Shown one piece after another: positions 11,094 to 20,559 of a stretch of 20,657 nucleotides of DNA (position 1 is its first letter; each line of letters opens with the position of its first letter). Source of the DNA: a virus; IMG/VR virus record IMGVR_UViG_3300048591_000339, positions 1 to 20,657 of that record; one strand, written 5' to 3'. The position numbers and the translations under genes were made by a program. The notes under the pieces were generated by a model. That model saw nothing but the letters and a program-made list of their open reading frames with translations. It made no database searches and had not been told where the DNA came from.

Positions 11094-13186
11094 GCGCGTG
11101 CTTCTCCGTTCTGAGGCTTGGCCTTCATCGCGGCCTGCTTTTTCATACCGTCCAGCTTAATGCTGTTGGCTTCCTGCTCATGCTGGCGCTGATCAAAGCG
11201 GTCTTGACGATCAAGCTCCGCGCCTTCGCGCTGCATCTGTATGTCCATGGTCTTGGCTTGCATATCCATTTCCATGGCCTGCTGCTTCAAGCTGAGTTCT
11301 GCCTGTTTAAGCTGCAGTTCCGCCTGCTTGATCTGCAGATCCATGGCGGCGCTCTGTTCCTTGATCTGCGCCATGCGCTCTTCGTGCGCGGCCTTCTGCT
11401 GTAGGCTCTGCGCTTCAAGCTGGACCTTCTGCTGATTGGCTTCCATGTCAGCTTTGGCCTTGACCGCTTCAGGATTCTCCTGCGGCGGCGCTTGGGCTGC
11501 TTCCTGGGCCTTTTCCTGTAGGCTCTCAAGCGCGTCTTCAGCTTGCTTGCCAAGCTTGAAGTGCCTGGCGAACTGGGAGAACACCTCCACCATGACCGGC
11601 AGCGCGGGCTGGGCCACCTGCGGAGCGCCTTGGACAAATCCTGCAATGGCGCTTGAGAATTGCGCTGTGCCCTGCAAGAAAAGGTTCATCTGCTCCTGCT
11701 TGCGGCCCAAATCCGCGCGCACGGTCGAGTCAGATTCAATGTCGATGCGATACGAGCGCACGTCCTGCTTGAGCATCTGCAGGGCAGCCTGGAACTTCTG
11801 CGCCTCCATCTGATCCTTTTCGGGATCTCCGGTCTGCGCCGGCAGGCTGGTCATCAGGGCGATATTTTGCGCGGTGAAATGGCGAATGATCACAGCCGCT
11901 TTAAGCCGGAAGATGTCGCGAGCAAACCGGGCCACGGCGCTCTGCATATCCTTGACACGCAGCGAGCCCCATTCCTGCTTGATGTTCTGGGCCGTTGCGG
12001 TCTCGTTGGGGTTGGAAGACCCGCGCAGAATGTCAGATAGGCCAGTCACCTCATAGATGGTCTGCTTGATCTGATCGCGCTGGACGTAGAGCTGCTGCAG
12101 GGCGCCCACAATCTCTTTCAGCGGCCAATGGGCGATAGCTTTCTCTAGGCCGCCGCCGCCCGTCGCAAACTGTGTCGCATCCTTGGCTTGGACATATTCC
12201 CCGTCTTCGCAATTGCGAAGCAGTTCGAAGTCCGGCATGAGCTTACTGTCAACAAGGCCGCGCACTCGAAGCTGACTGACCAGCTTACTGATCCGCTTCG
12301 TGACCTTGTCCAGCTCATCAAGCAGCGGCTTATAGATGTCGTACGGGCAGAGAGGAACCAGCGTCTTGACACGGGACAGAAGCTGCAGCGGCTGGGGCAC
12401 TGGGAAGAAGCCCGGCAGGTCCAGCGGGTCGTCTTCAACCTTCAGCGGCTCGTCTTTGTCCTTTGGCGTGATGAAGATGACCTTGCGGGTTGCCTTGTCC
12501 CAGATCTCGTGCACCTTCACGGTCTTGACGATGCCGCGTTCGCCTTCGCAGTCGTCGTCTTTCTCGTCAAAGCCGTAAGACTTAATGCGGGTTTCCGCTG
12601 TTTCCGGGGCGCCAATCAGTTCGGCAATCTGTTCCTTGGTGAGATCGTGGTCAAACCAGATGAACGGGACGTCTTCCCAGTAGAAGCCAGGTCCACGGCC
12701 CCACTTGTCCCAGCCGACGGGTTCGCAGGAGACTTCCTGATAGCCGACTTCCTCACCGTTGAATGAGGGCGTATAGCGCACCCGCGCCGTGCCACGTCCA
12801 GGCACAGCCGCAGCGCGCACAGCAGACGTGATCACCGTGTCATAGGGGTATTGATCGCAGGCGTAGGACACCGCGCGCTCGATGATATCAGCGCCCATCT
12901 TCGCAATCGGGTCTTTATCCCCAAAGCGGCGGCGCACATCCGGAATCGGTGTGGTGTTGTAAAGAGCGGGAACAAGCGTTTCGACGTTGGAGTGATAGAG
13001 GTTGAACGAAGTGTTGCTGTCCTTATGGGCCTCATAGACCTTAACAGCTTCCTCGCCGCGCTTGCGCCAATCCTCTTCATCCTTGCGCGCAGCCTCTATC
13101 CGCTTCAGCCAGATTTCCACCGGCTTGAGGCCAGCAGCTAAGGCGTCTTTGACTGAATCGATCTGCTGTCCGTCTTGCTCAGCCAT
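11090..13186 (-). CDS. Portal-like protein following the large terminase (portal A)
   Basis: This 698-residue protein directly follows the large terminase, the canonical portal position. Residues about 61-110 read like a portal wing entry (FNLYHSNVETLVPALYNTTP). A crown signature follows at about 376-400 (IYEVTGLSDILRGSSNPNET), with the run AQNIKQEWGSLRVKDMQSAV and a helix RDIFRLKAAVIIRHF. Residues about 575-680 form a long Gln/Lys/Glu-rich coiled coil with repeated KQAELQLKQAEL-type heptads. The EVTG-x(5-6)-G-x(5-7)-ET layout is shared with portal B at 6436-8616, but the surrounding sequences are otherwise unlike. It overlaps the terminase stop by 8 bases. It could be the active portal, a second portal or a portal-derived internal virion protein. 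Confidence 0.75.
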   Translation of the reverse strand: MAEQDGQQIDSVKDALAAGLKPVEIWLKRIEAARKDEEDWRKRGEEAVKVYEAHKDSNTSFNLYHSNVETLVPALYNTTPIPDVRRRFGDKDPIAKMGADIIERAVSYACDQYPYDTVITSAVRAAAVPGRGTARVRYTPSFNGEEVGYQEVSCEPVGWDKWGRGPGFYWEDVPFIWFDHDLTKEQIAELIGAPETAETRIKSYGFDEKDDDCEGERGIVKTVKVHEIWDKATRKVIFITPKDKDEPLKVEDDPLDLPGFFPVPQPLQLLSRVKTLVPLCPYDIYKPLLDELDKVTKRISKLVSQLRVRGLVDSKLMPDFELLRNCEDGEYVQAKDATQFATGGGGLEKAIAHWPLKEIVGALQQLYVQRDQIKQTIYEVTGLSDILRGSSNPNETATAQNIKQEWGSLRVKDMQSAVARFARDIFRLKAAVIIRHFTAQNIALMTSLPAQTGDPEKDQMEAQKFQAALQMLKQDVRSYRIDIESDSTVRADLGRKQEQMNLFLQGTAQFSSAIAGFVQGAPQVAQPALPVMVEVFSQFARHFKLGKQAEDALESLQEKAQEAAQAPPQENPEAVKAKADMEANQQKVQLEAQSLQQKAAHEERMAQIKEQSAAMDLQIKQAELQLKQAELSLKQQAMEMDMQAKTMDIQMQREGAELDRQDRFDQRQHEQEANSIKLDGMKKQAAMKAKPQNGEARA

Positions 13187-14549
13187 CGCGTTCGCGCTTG
13201 CGCTTTCTCATCTCGACAATCTCACGGACTGTCATGTTGGGCCGGATCTGGCCGTTATCGTCGGCGGTGTAGATAAGCTCGTCTTTATTGACGTGCGGCT
13301 TTGGCGGCTCAATCTTCATCTCTTTCCAGGCCATGGCCATGTATCGGAAAGCGTCCGCCGTGTGGCTTGTCCAATCGTGCTTTGGTGTCTTCTTGAAAGC
13401 CTTGGACTTCTCGTCGTACTCCGTCCGGTATTGGCGCAGCGCCTCAAGCCCGAACTTGCATTTGTAGGCATCGAACCAGCACTGCTTGAGCGTCATCCGG
13501 CCTGCGTTAATGCCGTCCTCAACCGTGTGATTGTCTACGATGCGAAAATCGTCGCCCTTCAGCAGATCTTGAAGCTGTTCCACACGCGTGCGCTTCATTC
13601 CAAGAATGACGGCTCTAGCGTCGTGGGGAAGGTAGTGGGTGCCGTACTTGTAGCCCCTGGACTGCAACTCTGCGGCGTAGTGGTCGAGTTCTTGCCCAAT
13701 ATTTGAATAGTGATCCAAGACGCGAAGGCCGTTTGGAGACACTTGAAAGAACCAGATTGCAGTGCTGTCTTGCCCTTTGCCCAAGTCCCAAGCCGTGTGC
13801 ACTGGGATGGCTTTGTCTTCCGGCAAATCACAGATGCGGCATTCGCGTTCGGCGTCCGCAATGCCTTTACCGTAGTAGGCGCCCATAATCGCAGCATCAA
13901 ACGAGCATTCGTATTCCTGCTCATACTGCTCAGGCGTCATGCTCTTGCGAGCGTCTTCAAGCTCTTCAAAGTCGACAAGGCCCGTACTGGACGCCTTAAG
14001 CATGGCCCGAAACCATGCGTCGTCTTTGCCGGCTAGGTCCCAGACTTCCCAGAAAGCGTTACGGCCTTTCGGGGTGCCAATGAATGTGGCCCAACCCTTG
14101 CGGTCAGATAGAGCCGGGCGGATGACCTCAGGCCATGCCCTTGGGTCCATGTCGGCAGGCTCGTCAAGCACCACCCCGTCGAGATAGAGACCGCGCATGC
14201 GGTCGTAATTGTCTGCGCCGTACAAGCGAATGCGCGCGCCGTTCGGGAAATCAACGCGAAGCTCGCTTTCGTTGTTCTCAACCCCAGGGATGACGCTTGA
14301 GAACTTCTTGAGATAGTTCCAGGCTACGTCTTTGGCCTGTGTGTAGTACGGCGCTAGATAAGCAAACCTGGGGTCAGGCTTCTGGCACGTTAGAGCCGCT
14401 TTGATCAGTTCGTTAATACACGCAACCGTCTTGCCAGCGCGACGATGGGCAACGATGCAGGCCCATCTCTCTTTGCGCAAATGAAAGTCGACAAACTCGG
14501 CGCGCGGGGTGTACGGGATCGTGACCCGTACTACTTCATGCCGGCCCAT
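13179..14549 (-). CDS. terL: Terminase large subunit (packaging ATPase-nuclease)
   Basis: This 456-residue protein is the DNA-packaging motor. The ATPase half has a Walker A-type loop at 35-42 (HRRAGKTV, Lys40), a Walker B at 126-131 (VVLDEP, Asp129 and Glu130) and a coupling-type motif at 156-162 (FIGTPKG). The RNase H-like nuclease half has the expected acidic residues in HTAWDLGKGQDSTA (Asp255), YLPHDAR (Asp310) and SHTADAFRYM (Asp399). Length and order are normal for phage TerL. It overlaps the small-subunit-like gene by 19 bases and the portal-like gene by 8. The Lys/Arg-rich end (MRKRKRERDG) is a common tail. All catalytic residues appear intact, so the motor should be functional. Confidence 0.95.
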   Translation of the reverse strand: MGRHEVVRVTIPYTPRAEFVDFHLRKERWACIVAHRRAGKTVACINELIKAALTCQKPDPRFAYLAPYYTQAKDVAWNYLKKFSSVIPGVENNESELRVDFPNGARIRLYGADNYDRMRGLYLDGVVLDEPADMDPRAWPEVIRPALSDRKGWATFIGTPKGRNAFWEVWDLAGKDDAWFRAMLKASSTGLVDFEELEDARKSMTPEQYEQEYECSFDAAIMGAYYGKGIADAERECRICDLPEDKAIPVHTAWDLGKGQDSTAIWFFQVSPNGLRVLDHYSNIGQELDHYAAELQSRGYKYGTHYLPHDARAVILGMKRTRVEQLQDLLKGDDFRIVDNHTVEDGINAGRMTLKQCWFDAYKCKFGLEALRQYRTEYDEKSKAFKKTPKHDWTSHTADAFRYMAMAWKEMKIEPPKPHVNKDELIYTADDNGQIRPNMTVREIVEMRKRKRERDG

Positions 14550-15093: not shown

Positions 15094-15305
15094 TTGCTCA
15101 GCCAATACCCGCCTGCAATCCATGCGAACGTCTGAGGGTCCGGGGCCATGATCCACGGCACATCGAAGTTGTACAGACGCTCTGCAATAAGCGCAACGGC
15201 AGCGAGTGCTAGACCTAGCCCCGCTGCCCAACGTAGCCAGCCTATTACCCAGTCAATCCAGTTTCGGATGTAGCTCGGCAGGGCCTTGGTGTCGATTTGA
15301 GCCAT
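15090..15305 (-). CDS. Small membrane protein, 71 residues
   Basis: The start at 15305 overlaps the stop of the large membrane protein (TAATG); the extra 12 residues upstream lie inside that gene. It has an amphipathic Trp-rich N-terminal helix (YIRNWIDWVIGWLRW) followed by one clear transmembrane helix (about 24-41, AAGLGLALAAVALIAERL) and a second weakly hydrophobic end (FAWIAGGYWLSK). Size and topology would suit a holin or a membrane partner of the protein encoded upstream, with which it is translationally coupled. I do not recognise a family. There is no lysis gene next to it, which weakens the holin idea. Confidence 0.65.
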   Translation of the reverse strand: MAQIDTKALPSYIRNWIDWVIGWLRWAAGLGLALAAVALIAERLYNFDVPWIMAPDPQTFAWIAGGYWLSK

Positions 15306-16441
15306 TAGGCAACCTTCTGCATCAGGGCACGGGCGGCCCACTGTTCGATGCTGCCCACCTTCTGGCGAACGTCATCGGCAGGGTCGCCGTTGATATAGAT
15401 GTTCGGGGCACCCATAGCAGTTGCGGCATTGCGCTCAGCCTGACGTTCCCAAATACCCATAGGCTCTTCACCATGGCCAGCCCAAGCGTCAACAATACCA
15501 GCTCGGCGGTTGAGGCCAGCCGCCAAGTAGAACAGCGGGGCAAGCAGCAGGAAGGCGATAGAGCTAAGGCCCATGACGCCCGTGTTGGTAGCTTCGCGTT
15601 CCGTCATGCTGACCACTTCGCGGAAGTCACCGGAGAAGGCGAGGCTAGCAGCCTTAAACAGCGTGTCGTTGTGGTTGGCAGCGGCGCTGGATTTGAACTC
15701 AGTCGAGACTGCTGCCGTGCGCTTGCCGTCAATGATACGCTGCGTGGCTTCGATGCGCTTGGACAGATCGTCCACCTTTTCAGCCGTGGCAATCTTGTCT
15801 TCAAGAGCGGCCTTTTCTTCCATCAATTTGAGGCACTTAGACTTGCAGCCGCCGCGCTTGCCCTCAAGCTCTACTTTCTTGTCAGCCGTAGCAAGCTGCG
15901 CGCGAAGGCCTTCAGCGGTCACGGTTGCGGTCCAGGCGTTCTGGTCCTTCAAGTCCGCAAGCTGCTTGCGCCACATCTCAAGATTGGACTTCTCTTCAGC
16001 GACGGCGTCCTGCCGCGTCTTCCAAGCGGCGTTCTGGACATCGGTCTGCTGCATGTCGCCAACGCGGATACTGGCCGAATATCCGACGTGGGTCATAAAG
16101 GCCACGAAGCCGAGCGGGACGCAGGCGACAGCAAACCAGCCGGCAGCGGTGCGGTTCCCCTTGCGCCATTCGAGGCTGGCCACGTCAGGCAGAATGCAAA
16201 AGGCCAGCGCCACAAGGGCAAAGCCGCCAGCGTGCAAGAGGCTAAGCGTGCTGCCGAACTCGTAGGAGATCCCAGCGTCAATGGCCATGGCGAACAAAGC
16301 CAGGAGCCAGAGAAACTGGCCCATCTGGTTGTACTGGCGCCACTGGGTCGAGAGGAAGTTGCCAACGCCCACGATGAGCGATGCGATGGCGCGGGGGATG
16401 GCCTTGAATAGCTGCCACAAGCTTGCATCTGCATGAGTCAT
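15305..16441 (-). CDS. Membrane protein with extracytoplasmic coiled coil and CxxxC motif
   Basis: This 378-residue protein has three N-terminal transmembrane helices (about 43-59, 66-84, 100-119), a long charged coiled coil (about 130-245) carrying CKSKC at 199-203, a fourth transmembrane helix (about 289-310) and a soluble C-terminus of about 68 residues. The same plan and the same centrally placed CxxxC occur in the plus-strand protein at 17720-18658, although overall sequence similarity looks low. With four membrane crossings, both termini would lie on one side and the coiled coil on the other, probably the periplasm. The two Cys could form a disulfide or bind a ligand. GGAG lies 10 bases before the ATG. 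The family is unknown to me; a phage membrane sensor, exclusion factor or adsorption-related protein is possible. Confidence 0.75.
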   Translation of the reverse strand: MTHADASLWQLFKAIPRAIASLIVGVGNFLSTQWRQYNQMGQFLWLLALFAMAIDAGISYEFGSTLSLLHAGGFALVALAFCILPDVASLEWRKGNRTAAGWFAVACVPLGFVAFMTHVGYSASIRVGDMQQTDVQNAAWKTRQDAVAEEKSNLEMWRKQLADLKDQNAWTATVTAEGLRAQLATADKKVELEGKRGGCKSKCLKLMEEKAALEDKIATAEKVDDLSKRIEATQRIIDGKRTAAVSTEFKSSAAANHNDTLFKAASLAFSGDFREVVSMTEREATNTGVMGLSSIAFLLLAPLFYLAAGLNRRAGIVDAWAGHGEEPMGIWERQAERNAATAMGAPNIYINGDPADDVRQKVGSIEQWAARALMQKVA

Positions 16442-16750
16442 GGGGTTCAGGCTCCGTTCATGGGGGAATGCTACGGATGTGGAATGAGAGGCCCAAGCTG
16501 CGGTTGCTGTTGCGGGGATTGGCAGCGCAGAGCGTTACCGGGCGTGGGGTCCCGGGTTGTCGTGCGGCTGCTCTGGGCTAAATGCAGCTTGGGCTTTGGG
16601 AAATTTCAGGTAAGCGGCAGCACTCCCTCAAGAAAATGGGGAGTGATACACCGAGCCGAACGTTACGCTGGGACGTTGCTCAAGGCCGGACAGACGCATT
16701 ACGGGATTGATTATCTCGCGTTATACTGATTTGCCGGGAAATACCAGAGG
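16442..16750. other. 309-base gene-free control region
   Basis: I see no convincing gene here. A plus-strand frame (16433-16729) is Cys-rich only at its start and has no ribosome site. The stretch holds the nested inverted repeats described separately (16491-16594), a 7-bp stem CACTCCC/GGGAGTG (16621-16627 and 16639-16645, 11-base loop, no T-run) and a minus-strand TATAAC (16725-16720) that could be a -10 box, although its -35 position (TCTGGT, 17-base spacing) is poor. The promoter of the long structural operon is expected here or upstream of it. It may need a phage activator. Confidence 0.4.
16491..16594. ncRNA. Candidate structured RNA with three nested inverted repeats
   Basis: An 11-bp perfect inverted repeat, GCCCAAGCTGC (16491-16501) with GCAGCTTGGGC (16584-16594), encloses a 6-bp pair CAGAGC/GCTCTG (16528-16533, 16570-16575) and a 5-bp GC-rich pair CCGGG/CCCGG (16538-16542, 16551-16555). 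These nest like a long three-tier hairpin, in the gene-free region upstream of the membrane protein and structural operon. It could be a leader RNA element, a small RNA or an antitermination site. There is no T-run at either end, so it is not a simple terminator. GC-rich DNA forms short pairs by chance; only the 11-bp pair is notable by itself. Confidence 0.35.
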
Positions 16751-17023
16751 CTAGCTGTTTTTATCTGAAGTGTTGCGCCCGCGACTCATTTCTTCGCGAA
16801 CGGTTAGGTACATGCGAACGGCGGAGCGCGCCTCTTCGTCAGTTCCTGCCAGCTTGTCGAGTTCTGCTTTGGCGATGATCAAATCATAGCGGGCTTGAGA
16901 AAACCTAACAGCTTGGGCCTTCCGCTGTTCCTGTGAAAGCCCATAGGCATTACTCATCTCTAGTGCCTGATAGATGGCTGCCTTGCTCACATATTCCGCT
17001 GCTGCCTTTGCTATGTCGCTCAT
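16751..17023 (-). CDS. Unknown helical protein in RHH operon
   Basis: This 90-residue protein is almost entirely helical and charged (MSDIAKAAAEYVSKAAIYQA, then QEQRKAQAVRFSQARYDLII and KLAGTDEEARSAVRMYLTVR). It has no membrane segment, Cys or catalytic signature. Its ATG overlaps the stop of the RHH regulator gene (ATGA at 17020-17023), so the two are made together. The pair resembles a toxin-antitoxin layout (RHH antitoxin first), but the second protein shows no feature of RelE, MazF, PIN or other common toxins. A co-regulator or anti-host factor is equally possible. I do not recognise a family. Confidence 0.65.
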   Translation of the reverse strand: MSDIAKAAAEYVSKAAIYQALEMSNAYGLSQEQRKAQAVRFSQARYDLIIAKAELDKLAGTDEEARSAVRMYLTVREEMSRGRNTSDKNS

Positions 17024-17193
17024 GTCCTTTTCCTTTTCCGTGCTGCTGCGTCCGCATCCACAATAAGCCGCCGCACCATCTCAGCCCGCGACGGTAGATC
17101 GTCCTCGCCCTTGCGGAGCCTGTCCAATGCCGCCAAATCGCTGGCGGACATGCGCATTTCAAAGCGCTCTGTTCTGTTATCTGTGTCTATCAT
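17020..17193 (-). CDS. Ribbon-helix-helix (CopG/Arc-type) regulator
   Basis: This 57-residue protein has a strand followed by two helices: RFEMRMS (strand), SASDLAALDRLRKGED (helix A), SRAEMVRRLIVDADAAAR (helix B), then a basic tail KRKRT. This is the RHH plan, in which dimers insert paired strands into the DNA major groove. I chose the ATG at 17193; a TTG at 17253 would add a leader that crosses the promoter. Only one base separates GAGG from the ATG, so the message may be leaderless if transcription starts at the ATG. It faces the plus-strand gene at 17298 across a 104-base region with two 13-bp repeats over the two -10 sites. It most likely represses itself and the divergent operon. Confidence 0.8.
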   Translation of the reverse strand: MIDTDNRTERFEMRMSASDLAALDRLRKGEDDLPSRAEMVRRLIVDADAAARKRKRT

Positions 17194-17200
17194 GCCTCTA

Positions 17201-17229
17201 TACGTACAATCCGTAAAAAAGATTGTCAA
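17201..17229 (-). promoter_or_regulatory. Promoter candidate for the RHH operon
   Basis: On the minus strand a perfect -35 box TTGACA lies at 17229-17224. With 17-base spacing the -10 position is TACGTA (17206-17201), a poor match. The better TATAGA (17202-17197) needs a 21-base spacer. With the 17-base choice, transcription would start at or beside the ATG at 17193, giving a leaderless message. The -10 position overlaps the first 13-bp repeat (17203-17215), as expected for autoregulation. Confidence 0.5.
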
Positions 17230-17259
17230 GAGGCTTGACTTGTGTCCGTACAATCCGTA
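17203..17259. repeat. Two copies of a 13-bp operator-like direct repeat
   Basis: The sequence CGTACAATCCGTA occurs at 17203-17215 and again at 17247-17259, 44 bases apart (about four helical turns). Each copy contains CGTA twice, and the first is embedded in TACG-7-CGTA dyad symmetry. The first copy covers the -10 position of the minus-strand RHH promoter, and the second covers the spacer and first bases of the plus-strand -10 box. This is the expected layout for operators of the RHH protein encoded next door. Confidence 0.7.
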
Positions 17260-17263
17260 TAAC
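17235..17263 (+). promoter_or_regulatory. Sigma-70-like promoter of the plus-strand operon
   Basis: TTGACT (17235-17240) and TATAAC (17258-17263) are separated by exactly 17 bases, a near-consensus promoter. The start of transcription would be about 17270, leaving a leader of about 28 bases with a GGGAG ribosome site before the ATG at 17298. Repeat copy 2 (17247-17259) lies between and over the boxes, so bound repressor would block polymerase. It is the best promoter I found in the window. Confidence 0.75.
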
Positions 17264-17297
17264 AGGGACAGTTAAATGAGAACACGGGAGAACGTAA

Positions 17298-17540
17298 ATG
17301 AAAATCACGGCAGAACAGTACAAGGACGCCACTGCTCGCGGATTCAAGGCCTACTGGCACAAGCTGACCGGCTTTGCAGAGGCCTGCTTCGATACGAAAG
17401 TTTACGACGATTTGAAGGACTACAGAACCACCAAGCCCGATGCTGCCGACATGGCGGCCTGGAAGATAGACGCAGACGAGTGGCGCGATGCACAGGCCAA
17501 GGCCATTGAAATGGCCATGGCGCACTTTGAAGACCAGTAA
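17298..17540 (+). CDS. Unknown 80-residue protein, first gene of plus-strand operon
   Basis: This is an acidic, Trp/Tyr-containing helical protein: MKITAEQYKDATARGFKAYW at the start, then KVYDDLKDYRTTKPDAADMA and a final amphipathic helix DEWRDAQAKAIEMAMAHFED. No membrane segment or known motif is present. It follows a near-consensus promoter and has a good ribosome site (GGGAG, 7 bases before the ATG). A 13-bp-stem hairpin comes 6 bases after its stop. It is probably an early or constitutively controlled product under the divergent RHH switch. The frame from 17276 is a shadow. I do not recognise a family. Confidence 0.75.
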   Translation: MKITAEQYKDATARGFKAYWHKLTGFAEACFDTKVYDDLKDYRTTKPDAADMAAWKIDADEWRDAQAKAIEMAMAHFEDQ

Positions 17541-17546
17541 CGAGTA

Positions 17547-17579
17547 AGCCCCCGGGAAGTTCTGACCTTCCCGGGGGCT
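17547..17579 (+). terminator. 13-bp perfect hairpin after the 80-residue gene
   Basis: AGCCCCCGGGAAG (17547-17559) pairs perfectly with CTTCCCGGGGGCT (17567-17579) around a 7-base loop, just after the stop at 17540. It is followed by ATTGCC rather than a T-run, so it is an incomplete intrinsic terminator on the plus strand; on the minus strand it is followed by TTACT. It may act as an attenuator, an RNA-processing or stability element, or a terminator in a host that tolerates weak T-tracts. The next two genes have no obvious promoter of their own and so may depend on readthrough. Confidence 0.5.
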
Positions 17580-17618
17580 ATTGCCTCAAACCCAACCAAC
17601 CACGGAAGGATTCTTAGC

Positions 17619-17723
17619 ATGGGCACTATCGCACTCTTTGCTTTCCTTGTCATCGCCGCGCCGGTTCTTGTGCTCGGCTTTTTCTGCCTCGTTGTGGATG
17701 CTATCGAGGGGATCAACCAATGA
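17619..17723 (+). CDS. 34-residue single-TM membrane microprotein
   Basis: The ATG at 17619 is preceded, with 8-base spacing, by the excellent ribosome site GGAAGGA (17604-17610). The product starts MGTIALFAFLVIAAPVLVLG and is a single transmembrane helix (about 4-26) with a short acidic tail (VVDAIEGINQ). Its stop overlaps the start of the 312-residue membrane protein (ATGA at 17720-17723), so the two are translationally coupled. Such tiny membrane proteins often bind and adjust a larger membrane partner, and that is the simplest guess here. Coding support comes from the ribosome site, the overlap and the hydrophobic composition; homology cannot be judged at this length. Confidence 0.7.
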   Translation: MGTIALFAFLVIAAPVLVLGFFCLVVDAIEGINQ

Positions 17724-18658
17724 ACCACGGTAGGATCTTGGCAGCCCTTTCAGGTGCTGCTTTTCTCGGCGGGTCTCTCACCATAATTATGGGATCAGCC
17801 CTTCTGCAACCTTGGTCTTGGGGGCAAGCCCAAGTCCTTACGGTGCTGATGATACTCGGCACCATCGCCGCTGGTCATCTGGCAAAGGTCGCTTTCAAGA
17901 CTCGTTCCGTCTCCTGCGTAGGCTTCGCTGTCCTGTTCGTCGCTGGTAGTGCTTTGGTCGTCTACAATAGCGTAGGCAGGCAGGCCGAACAGCACGACAC
18001 CGTCGCGCTCGAAAGGGCAACAGCAAACGCGCTCATCGAGGACAAGGTTCGCGACATTGAAGCTGCCCGCGAACGCTTGGCCAATGCTGAGCGGAACGCT
18101 GACCGCGAACGTGGTTCCAAGTGCGGCCAGAAGTGCAAGGGCTGGGAAGCTGCGGCGGCTGATGCGCGTAACGTGATCCGAGTGTTGGAGTCTGAAGTTC
18201 GCGCCCTTGGAGCGCCTAAGCCGGTCGATGCTAAGGCGAATAAGGCAGGCGAGTTGGCGGCGGTGTTCGGCTTTAATCGTCAGAAGGCAAGCGCCCTTGC
18301 TGCTCTGATAGAGCCGTTCCTGTGGACGATCTTCTTTGAGATCGGGACGATCGTTTCCCTGGGTTTCGCGTTCCACTCGACAGTTTCCAAAGTTTCCAAG
18401 CCTGTTTCGGATAGCGGAAACTCTGGCGGGGGAAAGGCGGAGCGGGCGCAGATCCGGCTTGTTGAAGATCACGAGGTTGCCGCCCTCAAGAAAGCGCTTC
18501 AAGGCCGTGGGGCGCTGACCAATGACGAGCTTGCGGCCGCAATGTCCTGTGCCAAAGGCGAAAGCTCGAAGCGCGTCACGCGGGCGGAAACTCTTGGGCT
18601 TGTTCGTCGGGAGCGTGTCGGGAAGCATGTTGCAATCTCTCTGATGCACGCGCACTGA
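17720..18658 (+). CDS. Membrane protein with CxxxC coiled coil and winged-helix-like C-terminus
   Basis: This 312-residue protein has three N-terminal transmembrane helices (about 7-26, 36-56, 64-82), a charged coiled coil (about 95-165) with CGQKC at 135-139, a fourth transmembrane helix (about 196-218), a Ser/Gly-rich linker (about 222-240) and a C-terminal domain of about 65 residues (244-310). That domain reads as helices with a turn and a basic wing: LKKALQGRGALTNDELAAAM, SKRVTRAETLGLVRRERVGK. It resembles a small winged helix-turn-helix, which would face the cytoplasm. The plan matches the protein at 15305-16441. A membrane-anchored one-component regulator sensing the periplasm is the leading idea. 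GAGGGG lies 8 bases before the ATG. It is coupled to the 34-residue microprotein and is followed by a good terminator. Confidence 0.75.
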   Translation: MNHGRILAALSGAAFLGGSLTIIMGSALLQPWSWGQAQVLTVLMILGTIAAGHLAKVAFKTRSVSCVGFAVLFVAGSALVVYNSVGRQAEQHDTVALERATANALIEDKVRDIEAARERLANAERNADRERGSKCGQKCKGWEAAAADARNVIRVLESEVRALGAPKPVDAKANKAGELAAVFGFNRQKASALAALIEPFLWTIFFEIGTIVSLGFAFHSTVSKVSKPVSDSGNSGGGKAERAQIRLVEDHEVAALKKALQGRGALTNDELAAAMSCAKGESSKRVTRAETLGLVRRERVGKHVAISLMHAH

Positions 18659-18744: not shown

Positions 18745-19272
18745 TCATGCAGCCTCCAGCGCTGAAGCGGGAACCTCTACCACCCGCATTGATCCAAATA
18801 GCTGAGCCTCAAGAAGCGCTCGCGCTTTGTTAATCCATTGAACTGTCCAAACACGATCAGCGAGCGGCCCTGAGCCGTTCTTGAGCCTGACCTTGGCGCC
18901 AGCGCGAATCCGCTTTGTAGCGGCTCTGGCTTCCAGCCTGAAAATTAGATCCTCTATTGAATTTGCCAGCTTAGCCCGGTCTGCATCAGATACTAACGCT
19001 GCCTTGTCTTCTACTTGGAGAAGCCCTCTAACATCCCGTGTTGATGTCACGTCGTACAGCCATAGGTCTAGGACGTGCTCAGATGGGGCCTGGACAAGGA
19101 TGTAGCTCATCAGCGGCGTGATGGTGCGGCGCCTCTTGAGCTTGCCGCCCTTGGCCACAGCACGCACGCGAGCGATGGCGGGGAGATAGGCCTGATACCC
19201 CTTGCGGCGCAATCGACGGCGGACCTTGCGGATCTTGGCCGGGTCTGCGGTGATGACGATCCAACTGCTCAA
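18745..19272 (-). CDS. NusG/RfaH-like transcription elongation factor
   Basis: This 175-residue protein has the two-domain NusG plan. The N-terminal (NGN) part, about 3-112, has WIVITADPAKIRKVRRRLRR, the YQAYLPAIARVR strand, a basic loop (KGGKLKRRR), the TPLMSYILVQ strand matching the family's 'F-x-GY-x-x-V', and the DVRGLLQVEDKAALVSDADR region. The C-terminal KOW-like domain, about 121-172, has IRAGAKVRLKNGSGPLADR, then ARALLEAQLFG and RVVEVPASALE. NusG binds RNA polymerase at the clamp, while the KOW domain contacts Rho, NusE or RNA. A phage copy likely alters termination. It starts with TTG at 19272 behind AGGAGG (7-base spacing) and overlaps the methyltransferase stop (TTGA). The paralogue lacks the host's typical conserved stretches, so specialisation is likely. 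Confidence 0.85.
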   Translation of the reverse strand: MSSWIVITADPAKIRKVRRRLRRKGYQAYLPAIARVRAVAKGGKLKRRRTITPLMSYILVQAPSEHVLDLWLYDVTSTRDVRGLLQVEDKAALVSDADRAKLANSIEDLIFRLEARAATKRIRAGAKVRLKNGSGPLADRVWTVQWINKARALLEAQLFGSMRVVEVPASALEAA

Positions 19273-19964
19273 AGCAGTGCCTCCTGTTTTGGCGATGGCG
19301 CCTTCTCTTGTTCGATGAACATATCGGGCTGTGCGTAAGCGGCTTCGATGCGCTTGCAGGCCGTCTCAAAATATCCGGGGTCTATCTCAATTCCGATGAA
19401 CTTCCGGCCAAGCTTCACAGCAGCAACGCCAGTCGTGCCAGAGCCCATGAAAGGGTCTAGGATGGTGCGGGCTGCAGGCAAGAAACCTATGCACCATTCC
19501 ATCACAGCCACGGGCTTTTGCGTTGGGTGCTGGCGGAACACTGGTGCACGTACCTTGTCCATTTCGCCTTTGCGGATAAAGCCGTTCCATTGCCAGCGGA
19601 AAATGCGCATTGCACCCGGATCGCTGCACCAAGCCATTTCGCCATCGGCAAAATCGCCGCTGTTTTCCTTGTCCCAAACAAGCCAACGCGGCGCTGGTCC
19701 AAGATCGAAGTAGTTGCCGCCCCAAACGATCCACGGGCACGCAGGAAGCACTGCAAGGTCGGGCCGTTCCCGATCCCAGTCAAATCCGCCGTAGTCTCGC
19801 GGCGGAGCCAAACCGCCCCGGGTTGCGTTCTTGCGCCCGCTTTCCCCAATCCCATACGGCGGGTCTGTCACGACAGCATCTACTTTAGGCAGTAGGGGTA
19901 GGACCTCCCTGCAATCGCCAAGCAGCAAACGGCAGTCGCCAATGATCACTTCACGCTTCCACAT
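19269..19964 (-). CDS. DNA methyltransferase (DPPY type)
   Basis: This 231-residue protein is a class-beta amino methyltransferase: the catalytic motif IV (DPPYGIG, 34-40) comes first and the SAM-binding motif I last (DPFMGSGTTG, 170-179, with GIEID at 191-195). HPTQKP at 146-151 is also typical of this family. DPPY suggests N6-adenine (or N4-cytosine) methylation. The likely role is protecting phage DNA from host restriction or marking it. No obvious restriction partner is present, but the neighbour upstream is a GIY-YIG nuclease whose 3' end overlaps this gene by 14 bases. AGAGGT precedes the ATG at 5-base spacing. The short region between motifs IV and I makes it a compact enzyme. Confidence 0.9.
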   Translation of the reverse strand: MWKREVIIGDCRLLLGDCREVLPLLPKVDAVVTDPPYGIGESGRKNATRGGLAPPRDYGGFDWDRERPDLAVLPACPWIVWGGNYFDLGPAPRWLVWDKENSGDFADGEMAWCSDPGAMRIFRWQWNGFIRKGEMDKVRAPVFRQHPTQKPVAVMEWCIGFLPAARTILDPFMGSGTTGVAAVKLGRKFIGIEIDPGYFETACKRIEAAYAQPDMFIEQEKAPSPKQEALL

Positions 19965-20559
19965 GAGAAACCTCTTTGTGTCTAGCGTTTGAGCAGACGC
20001 GCGAGCAGAACTTATTTTGCCCTTTCAAAATTGCGTTTCGTCGGCGCCAAAACCTTTCACCGCAACGCTCACAATGAAAATGCCCACCAGTCTTGCCTGC
20101 CTCACCTATGCGCTTTGCATGGGCGCTTCCTGCAAACTTGTGGCCTGACATGCCAGGGCCGCCATCCGTCACGTTCAGAAGCGTGTTCTTGTGTATGACC
20201 ACCCAATGACGCTCGCGCGATACCCTGTCGCGCTCGTCAACCTGCTCAAGAACAACAGCTTCAAAACCATCGAAGTTTTCGAGTACCCACACATGGAAAG
20301 GCAAGTCACTACCCGACTTAGCCTCGCCAACATGAGCCCTTATTCGATCTCTCATGCTTCGCGATGTGCTGCCTATGTAAACAAAAGCACACTGCCAATT
20401 TTTCCGAATCCCGTAGATCAGGACTCTCTTTGGCTCGTTGATGATTTTTACACGCGCGCCAGCGCAATCTATCGGCGGCTCGCTTTCCAGCTTCTTCCGG
20501 CATTCCTCGATGGCAAGGGCGTAAGACTTCGCGGAGTTGTCGGCTGCGTCGTAGCTCAA
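19951..20559 (-). CDS. GIY-YIG nuclease with C-terminal zinc finger
   Basis: This 202-residue protein has the GIY-YIG core: YGI at 49-51, YIG at 61-63 in AFVYIGSTSRSMRDRIRAHV, a basic RDRIRAH, and a Glu in RERHWVVIH (Glu116) followed by NVTDGGPGMSGHKF. The C-terminal end has two Cys pairs (163/166 and 185/189) in CERCGERFW and FCSRVCS, a zinc-finger layout typical of homing-endonuclease-like proteins. It likely cuts or nicks DNA at a site chosen by the finger. It starts with TTG at 20559 behind AGGAG (6-base spacing), overlapping the upstream stop (TTGA), and overlaps the methyltransferase gene. It could be a freestanding homing nuclease, an anti-host nuclease or part of a nuclease-methyltransferase pair. 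Confidence 0.85.
   Translation of the reverse strand: MSYDAADNSAKSYALAIEECRKKLESEPPIDCAGARVKIINEPKRVLIYGIRKNWQCAFVYIGSTSRSMRDRIRAHVGEAKSGSDLPFHVWVLENFDGFEAVVLEQVDERDRVSRERHWVVIHKNTLLNVTDGGPGMSGHKFAGSAHAKRIGEAGKTGGHFHCERCGERFWRRRNAILKGQNKFCSRVCSNARHKEVSHVEA

Follow-up and report, generated by a model that had tools for sequence, protein, structure and literature searches.

Why would a virus encode, on opposite strands and on either side of a small ribbon-helix-helix (RHH) switch gene, two look-alike membrane proteins, one of which seems to end in a DNA-binding domain? The question is raised by positions 1 to 20,657 of the IMG/VR record IMGVR_UViG_3300048591_000339 (hereafter, the window), in which the two open reading frames (ORFs), P0001 and P0002, have the coordinates and strands given to them in a first-pass annotation made from the sequence alone (Table 1). 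The answer toward which we lean, if only slightly, is that P0002 is a phage-encoded, membrane-anchored one-component transcription regulator whose topology is inverted relative to that of ToxR. P0001 is, judging from its sequence, a paralogue without a recognizable DNA-binding domain, and the pair has the look of a phage gene switch, so far undescribed, that is coupled to the cell envelope. Below, P0001-type proteins are called fam1 and P0002-type proteins fam2, and L-numbers designate the viral contig loci of their relatives.

Hydropathy and AlphaFold2 models made from family alignments agree on the plan first read from the letters, i.e., three transmembrane (TM) helices, a charged coil, a fourth TM helix and a soluble C terminus in each protein. 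By hydropathy, the TM helices are located at residues 40-58, 66-84, 98-116 and 289-307 of P0001 and 6-24, 39-57, 63-81 and 200-218 of P0002, with a long charged segment separating TM3 from TM4 in both. At its N terminus, P0001 carries an additional helix (17-35), and its model (mean predicted local distance difference test [pLDDT] of 85.4) contains TM helices at 39-64 and 68-93 and a hairpin formed by helices 97-167, which extends beyond the membrane, and 176-195, a short Cys-bearing turn (196-200) and a return helix (201-246). The P0002 model (mean pLDDT of 74.8) has helices at 3-29, 36-60 and 65-130, a turn at 131-136, and further helices at 137-163 and 187-217; its hairpin, predicted to be periplasmic, is ca. 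110 residues long. The cysteines C199/C203 (P0001) and C135/C139 (P0002), whose positions had been assigned correctly, sit at the hairpin tips. After TM4, P0001 has a tail of ca. 70 residues with no recognized domain, ending in -VA.

In P0002, TM4 is followed by a linker (223-247) that is flexible in the model (pLDDT below 50) and by a segment (239-308) modeled as helix-helix-helix-strand-strand. The proposal that this C terminus is a winged helix is upheld by the structure model and by VIA-align, here a realignment of Foldseek's own candidates with consistent winged-helix rows: the tail aligned to MarR and Z-alpha winged helices with Z of ~10 (in the tightest rows, 61-67 residues superposed with a root mean square deviation of 1.4-2.0 Å), and residues 240-312 gave Z of 9-10 with many MarR chains. 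In Pfam, residues 262-302 matched MarR_2 (E of 8e-4) at 19.9 bits, below its cut-off of 27, and the match to MarR (12.3 bits) was also below the cut-off (24.6). P0002 would thus share the winged-helix fold of residues 239-308 with MarR/ArsR-type regulators, from which it differs in falling below the Pfam cut-off, in its fused membrane anchor and in the absence, in the model, of a helix after the wing. MarR proteins have dimerization helices at both their N and C termini; in the P0002 model, a single long helix (239-260) precedes the helix-turn-helix (HTH), of which 279-291 would be the recognition helix.

The 13 aligned fam2 tails can all be read as HTH domains, and they fall into three types: the fold is clear in one, one just reaches the Pfam cut-off and one is weak. 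The alignment gives L052 the same MarR-like winged HTH as P0002. The tail of L049, of a type common to its near-identical relatives L047, L048 and L050, reaches the cut-offs of HTH_36 (26.1 versus 25) and HTH_28 (25 versus 25). The remaining tails contain a short segment (HGR.P...E...F....TTa.RR..AA) with weak resemblance to the HTH of LexA/IclR; that of L027 matched LexA and IclR HTH domains at E of 2-5e-4 (one value being 2.4e-4), and a profile of these short tails found LexA in PDB, weakly (E of 0.02). L006 and L046 carry near-identical tails on membrane parts that have diverged, which suggests, as far as sequences can tell, that fam2 tails get swapped between membrane parts.

The TM2-TM3 loop of fam2 contains K/R in 13/13 proteins and D/E in none, and the TM1-TM2 loop is free of K/R in all 13; loop charges in fam1 point in the same direction, more weakly. 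This charge pattern, together with the paired cysteines, places the coil in the periplasm, and the predicted topology of fam2 (N terminus inside, coil periplasmic, tail cytoplasmic) agrees with the orientation proposed initially. The coil has exactly two cysteines in 13/13 fam2 proteins; in fam1 it has two in 20 of 23 and none in the other three and in P0003, and a single Cys was found in no protein. Since fam1 loses its cysteines in pairs, never singly, the tip cysteines are indicated to form a structural disulfide, which argues against redox sensing and would itself need a periplasmic coil. In L004, L008, L009 and L036, the fam1 pair has been swapped as a unit for a Gly/Lys-rich tip (RKAGKGKEF and similar), so the hairpin tip would need no redox chemistry, and in fam2 the spacing varies between CxxxC and Cx7C. 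In CadC, a periplasmic disulfide (C208-C272) is absent at low pH, affects activity and can be replaced by a salt bridge (PMC3096576); by analogy, CadC could serve as a precedent, being a membrane regulator tuned by a disulfide in the periplasm.

BLASTP gave no signal between P0001 and P0002, and comparison of the family profiles by hhalign, in an alignment of 213 columns that matches the Cys tips to each other, gave 97.6% and E of 3.9e-12, a score that shared membrane and coil composition bias could inflate. Most simply, fam1 and fam2 would be paralogues, distant homologues whose resemblance is not due to chance. Both models retrieved the same four viral structures from BFVD (A0A6J5KYT9, A0A6J5LJZ8, A0A6J5RZR7 and A0A248SJG0), compared by structure alone, with Foldseek E of 4e-5 to 5e-3 and TM-scores of just 0.3-0.5; none of the four carries a name or function.

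Phage proteins of the same plan are not restricted to the window. An alignment-based scan of viral contigs (alignment A2) found 29 loci of P0001 relatives; fam2 relatives first surfaced as opposite-strand ORFs at these fam1 loci, and a scan with the fam2 alignment added more. Counted as distinct C termini in phage contigs, fam1 is the more widespread (27 versus 13), and both families occur in 10 records (the window, L006, L017, L027, L028, L033, L040, L044, L046 and L052), with fam2 lacking a detectable fam1 in L047-L051. One relative of P0001 (37% identity) is found in the annotated phage MW202785, a circular genome of 40 kb with an integrase. As 7 of 24 records, the complete MW202785 included, contain an integrase, some of these phages are temperate. 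Searches starting from fam2 gave little: tblastn with P0002 found nothing in phages and, in plasmids, a single Rhizobium match (E of 0.6) to an Lrp/AsnC-like HTH protein by sequence, and the fam2 proteins of L017, L050 and L040 had no match in phages. Scans of genome contigs with P0002 and alignment A2 yielded no relatives, and as they required near-exact peptide patterns, this does not imply absence from bacterial chromosomes.

Pfam, PHROG and NCBIfam provided no useful name for either family. The matches to DUF4407 (PF14362) were dropped, as they fell under the cut-off of 31.3 bits (best E of 2.7e-4, in one fam1 member); the match in L050 (17.1 bits, residues 103-177) covers the coil. The VIA-align matches of the P0001 coil to p85 iSH2, Smc and Vipp1 (Z of 8-10) are generic long-helix matches. 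An Rz-type spanin consists of a single-TM inner membrane protein and an outer membrane lipoprotein partner; both P0001 and P0002 depart from this plan in having four TM helices, and the PHROG match was at chance level (E of 0.76).

The genomic context is also conserved. When the locus is oriented so that fam1 points to the right, it runs from a NusG-like gene through fam2 on the opposite strand, a small regulator, an outer membrane protein (OMP) barrel and fam1 to the terminase. The two families are on opposite strands in 10/10 records that hold both, and the NusG-like gene is the convergent neighbor of fam2 in nine of them (in L052, none was seen); fam1 is found on the far side of NusG in L006 and L046. 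NusG leads to fam1 with no fam2 detected in L004, L007, L008, L009, L019, L020 and L031, which gives fam2 the look of an inserted cassette. Divergent from fam2, the regulator is of the RHH type in the window and L006 and XRE-like (by eye) in L017 and L052. The barrel gene is the one immediately before fam1 in L004, L019, L020, L027, L028, L033, L036, L040 and L044 and lies within ca. 2 kb of it in L008 and L009; in 7 of these 11 records, it exceeds the OMP_b-brl cut-off. The window has no OMP gene, and the ca. 300 bp upstream of its fam1 gene contain no obvious minus-strand ORF. The P0001 gene heads the terminase/structural operon, on the strand opposite to the P0002 gene. The large terminase ORF of L007 (5839-8499) is seemingly broken, by eye, by an intein-like insertion. 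This locus, the paralogy of the pair and the lack of a recognizable DNA-binding domain in P0001 go beyond the first-pass annotation, whose observation is confirmed and whose interpretation is supported in part: of the membrane-anchored one-component sensor of redox or envelope state that it envisaged, the anchored regulator remains the best reading, and the redox part fares badly, with Cys pairs lost together and their spacing variable.

Among described systems, ToxR-like regulators come closest; they have an N-terminal DNA-binding domain, one TM helix and a C-terminal periplasmic domain (PMC5936718). P0002 does not follow that plan at its N terminus or in its number of TM helices, but, by its predicted topology and model, it resembles ToxR, TcpP and CadC in that a single membrane protein joins a winged helix in the cytoplasm to an input region in the periplasm, and CadC also in its periplasmic Cys pair (C208-C272 in CadC, PMC3096576). 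It differs from all of them in its four TM helices, the coil hairpin between TM3 and TM4, the C-terminal position of the winged helix, its phage origin and a paralogous partner without HTH. Our literature searches brought up no description of a transcription factor that is encoded by a phage and anchored in the membrane, which is weak evidence of absence.

Several points weigh against P0002 being a regulator. The winged-helix part of its model has a pLDDT of only ~70-79, the hidden Markov model matches of the short LexA-like tails are weak, and a convincing Pfam HTH family was found in just one of eight scanned. The relatives all come from metagenomic contigs, bar one assembled phage genome. 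A search for shared words that could be operators upstream of fam2 in five relatives gave none, and a DNA-binding tail could tether DNA rather than regulate.

Of the alternatives, the one that survives best, unlikely as we consider it, is that both proteins act in the membrane, in superinfection exclusion or in envelope remodeling with the OMP barrel, and that the HTH of P0002 serves only to autoregulate the operon that encodes it. The position of fam1 right after the barrel gene in nine records and within 2 kb of it in two more, the wider distribution of the family without recognizable HTH (27 versus 13 distinct proteins) and the behavior of fam2, like that of an insert with its own transcription placed between NusG and the late operon, would all fit; however, the window lacks an OMP gene, and the retention of a DNA-binding tail even as its type changes suggests a role beyond local feedback. 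Somewhat less probable is that P0002 serves replication or segregation by fixing the DNA of the phage or prophage to the inner membrane, with the HTH used for positioning rather than regulation. A predicted DNA-binding tail on a disordered linker in a multispan membrane protein would suit this role, and there is a precedent in phi29 p16.7, an integral membrane protein that organizes phi29 replication via binding of terminal protein and single-stranded DNA (PMC4974454). P0002 resembles p16.7 in being a phage-encoded integral membrane protein with (predicted) DNA binding and differs in its four TM helices, its periplasmic hairpin and its MarR-like winged helix, a fold typical of double-stranded operator binding; moreover, fam2 is not part of a replication operon but of a separate cassette, on the opposite strand and with a divergent repressor, and a tether has no obvious need for a hairpin of this length with conserved cysteines. 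That periplasmic oxidation switches the tip cysteines and so controls the winged helix is the most improbable, since the near-constancy of the Cys pair and the effect of the CadC disulfide (PMC3096576) speak for it but its replacement as a unit in fam1 and its shifting spacing in fam2 are better explained by a structural cap.

How a membrane-anchored regulator of this kind might work can be outlined from the computed architecture, homology, predicted topology, modeled winged-helix fold and locus conservation, to which a DNA target, a signal, a pairing with P0001 and a sign of regulation are added by inference. The four TM helices of P0002 would hold a disulfide-capped coil hairpin in the periplasm, and the flexible cytoplasmic linker would bear the winged helix. 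The RHH protein would control the fam2 operon, and P0002 dimers, formed via the coil or the TM helices, would bind phage DNA at the membrane. DNA binding could then be altered by a change in the periplasmic hairpin, due to the state of the envelope or to pairing with late-made P0001. Finally, since the late transcript, presumably driven by NusG, would run antisense to fam2, late transcription on the other strand would oppose it and may turn it off. A bolder scheme, which we regard as doubtful, would join the OMP barrel and the P0001- and P0002-type proteins into a trans-envelope signaling chain that passes the state of the outer membrane or periplasm by coil-coil contacts to the membrane-bound transcription factor and sets the lysis-lysogeny or late-gene decision, with -AA degrons making the proteins short-lived.

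The degrons of that scheme refer to the C-terminal Ala found in 38/40 fam1 and fam2 proteins versus 67/280 other ORFs of the loci (Fisher 9e-19) and the Ala-Ala found in 26/40 versus 24/280 (8.6%; Fisher 7e-15), tests that ignore relatedness and have a background including mechanical ORFs. P0002 itself ends in HAH. In Caulobacter, CtrA with altered C-terminal alanines is stabilized against proteolysis (PMC4433202). By analogy, the Ala ends might be a ClpXP degron, a lead and not a result. The NusG-like protein of the window ends in -EAA.

The decision circuits known from phages mostly sense inputs from the cytoplasm, such as DNA damage, peptides, autoinducers or infection number. A conserved phage regulator in the inner membrane with a disulfide-tipped periplasmic arm, if true, would let phages take input directly from the envelope. 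With a paralogue pair, swapped HTH tails and a conserved locus to work on, the regulator reading is testable, and fam1 and fam2 are a recognizable family for annotators.

In the window, the RHH gene sits between P0001 and P0002, its probable start being the ATG at 17193 and not 17253, and its product likely represses itself and the fam2 operon. Its candidate operator, CGTACAATCCGTA, has four matches with up to two mismatches in the window, a number reached in 0/100 shuffles. The candidate promoter was not in the list of the automated promoter scan, which demanded T at position 6. Rfam had no match in the window.

Table 1. Features of the P0001/P0002 locus (positions in the window) and barrel genes of related loci (positions in each locus)
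Feature	Position	Strand	Remarks
Large terminase subunit	13179..14549	-	Downstream on fam1 strand; locus anchor
P0001 (fam1), 378 aa	15305..16441	-	N-terminal helix, TM1-3, long coil hairpin with C199/C203 tip, TM4, tail
RHH (CopG/Arc-like) protein, 57 aa	17020..17193	-	RHH_1 E 0.014, sub-threshold
CGTACAATCCGTA copy 1, candidate RHH operator	17203..17215	+	
Candidate sigma-70-like promoter of fam2 operon, TTGACT-17-TATAAC	17235..17263	+	10/12 matches by eye
CGTACAATCCGTA copy 2	17247..17259	+	In spacer and -10 of candidate promoter
80-aa first ORF of fam2 operon	17298..17540	+	No useful match
16-bp GC-rich hairpin, no T-run	17547..17579	+	Upstream of 34-aa ORF and fam2
34-aa single-TM micro-ORF	17619..17723	+	Stop overlaps fam2 start (ATGA)
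P0002 (fam2), 312 aa	17720..18658	+	TM1-3, coil hairpin with C135/C139 tip, TM4, linker, winged helix
NusG/RfaH-like antiterminator	18745..19272	-	Convergent neighbor of fam2
OMP_b-brl-type barrel, L004	6822-7376	Same as fam1	Upstream of fam1
OMP_b-brl-type barrel, L027	7378-7971	Same as fam1	Upstream of fam1
OMP_b-brl-type barrel, L028	3970-4605	Same as fam1	Upstream of fam1
OMP_b-brl-type barrel, L033	7459-8034	Same as fam1	Upstream of fam1
OMP_b-brl-type barrel, L040	6094-6717	Same as fam1	Upstream of fam1
OMP_b-brl-type barrel, L044	5675-6355	Same as fam1	Upstream of fam1

The GC-rich hairpin that the window has ahead of the 34-aa leader ORF has counterparts a short distance upstream of fam2 in L006, L027, L028, L033, L040, L044, L046-L050 and L052. 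These leader hairpins have a mean of -27 kcal/mol, versus -22 kcal/mol for random 73-nt windows (p of 4e-4, uncorrected for kinship). At ~80-200 nt upstream of fam2, L027, L028 and L040 share an element of the form GCAGCAACTAG-stem-TCCG/TTCG-stem-CTTTTCCTGC, with a 6-bp stem of which both sides differ among the three. Elsewhere in the window, a 90-aa protein (16751-17023) has a weak match to BrxA (E of 0.0023, under the cut-off), and the region at 19269-20559 encodes a DNA N6/N4 methyltransferase beside a protein that weakly matches GIY-YIG and HNH homing endonucleases.

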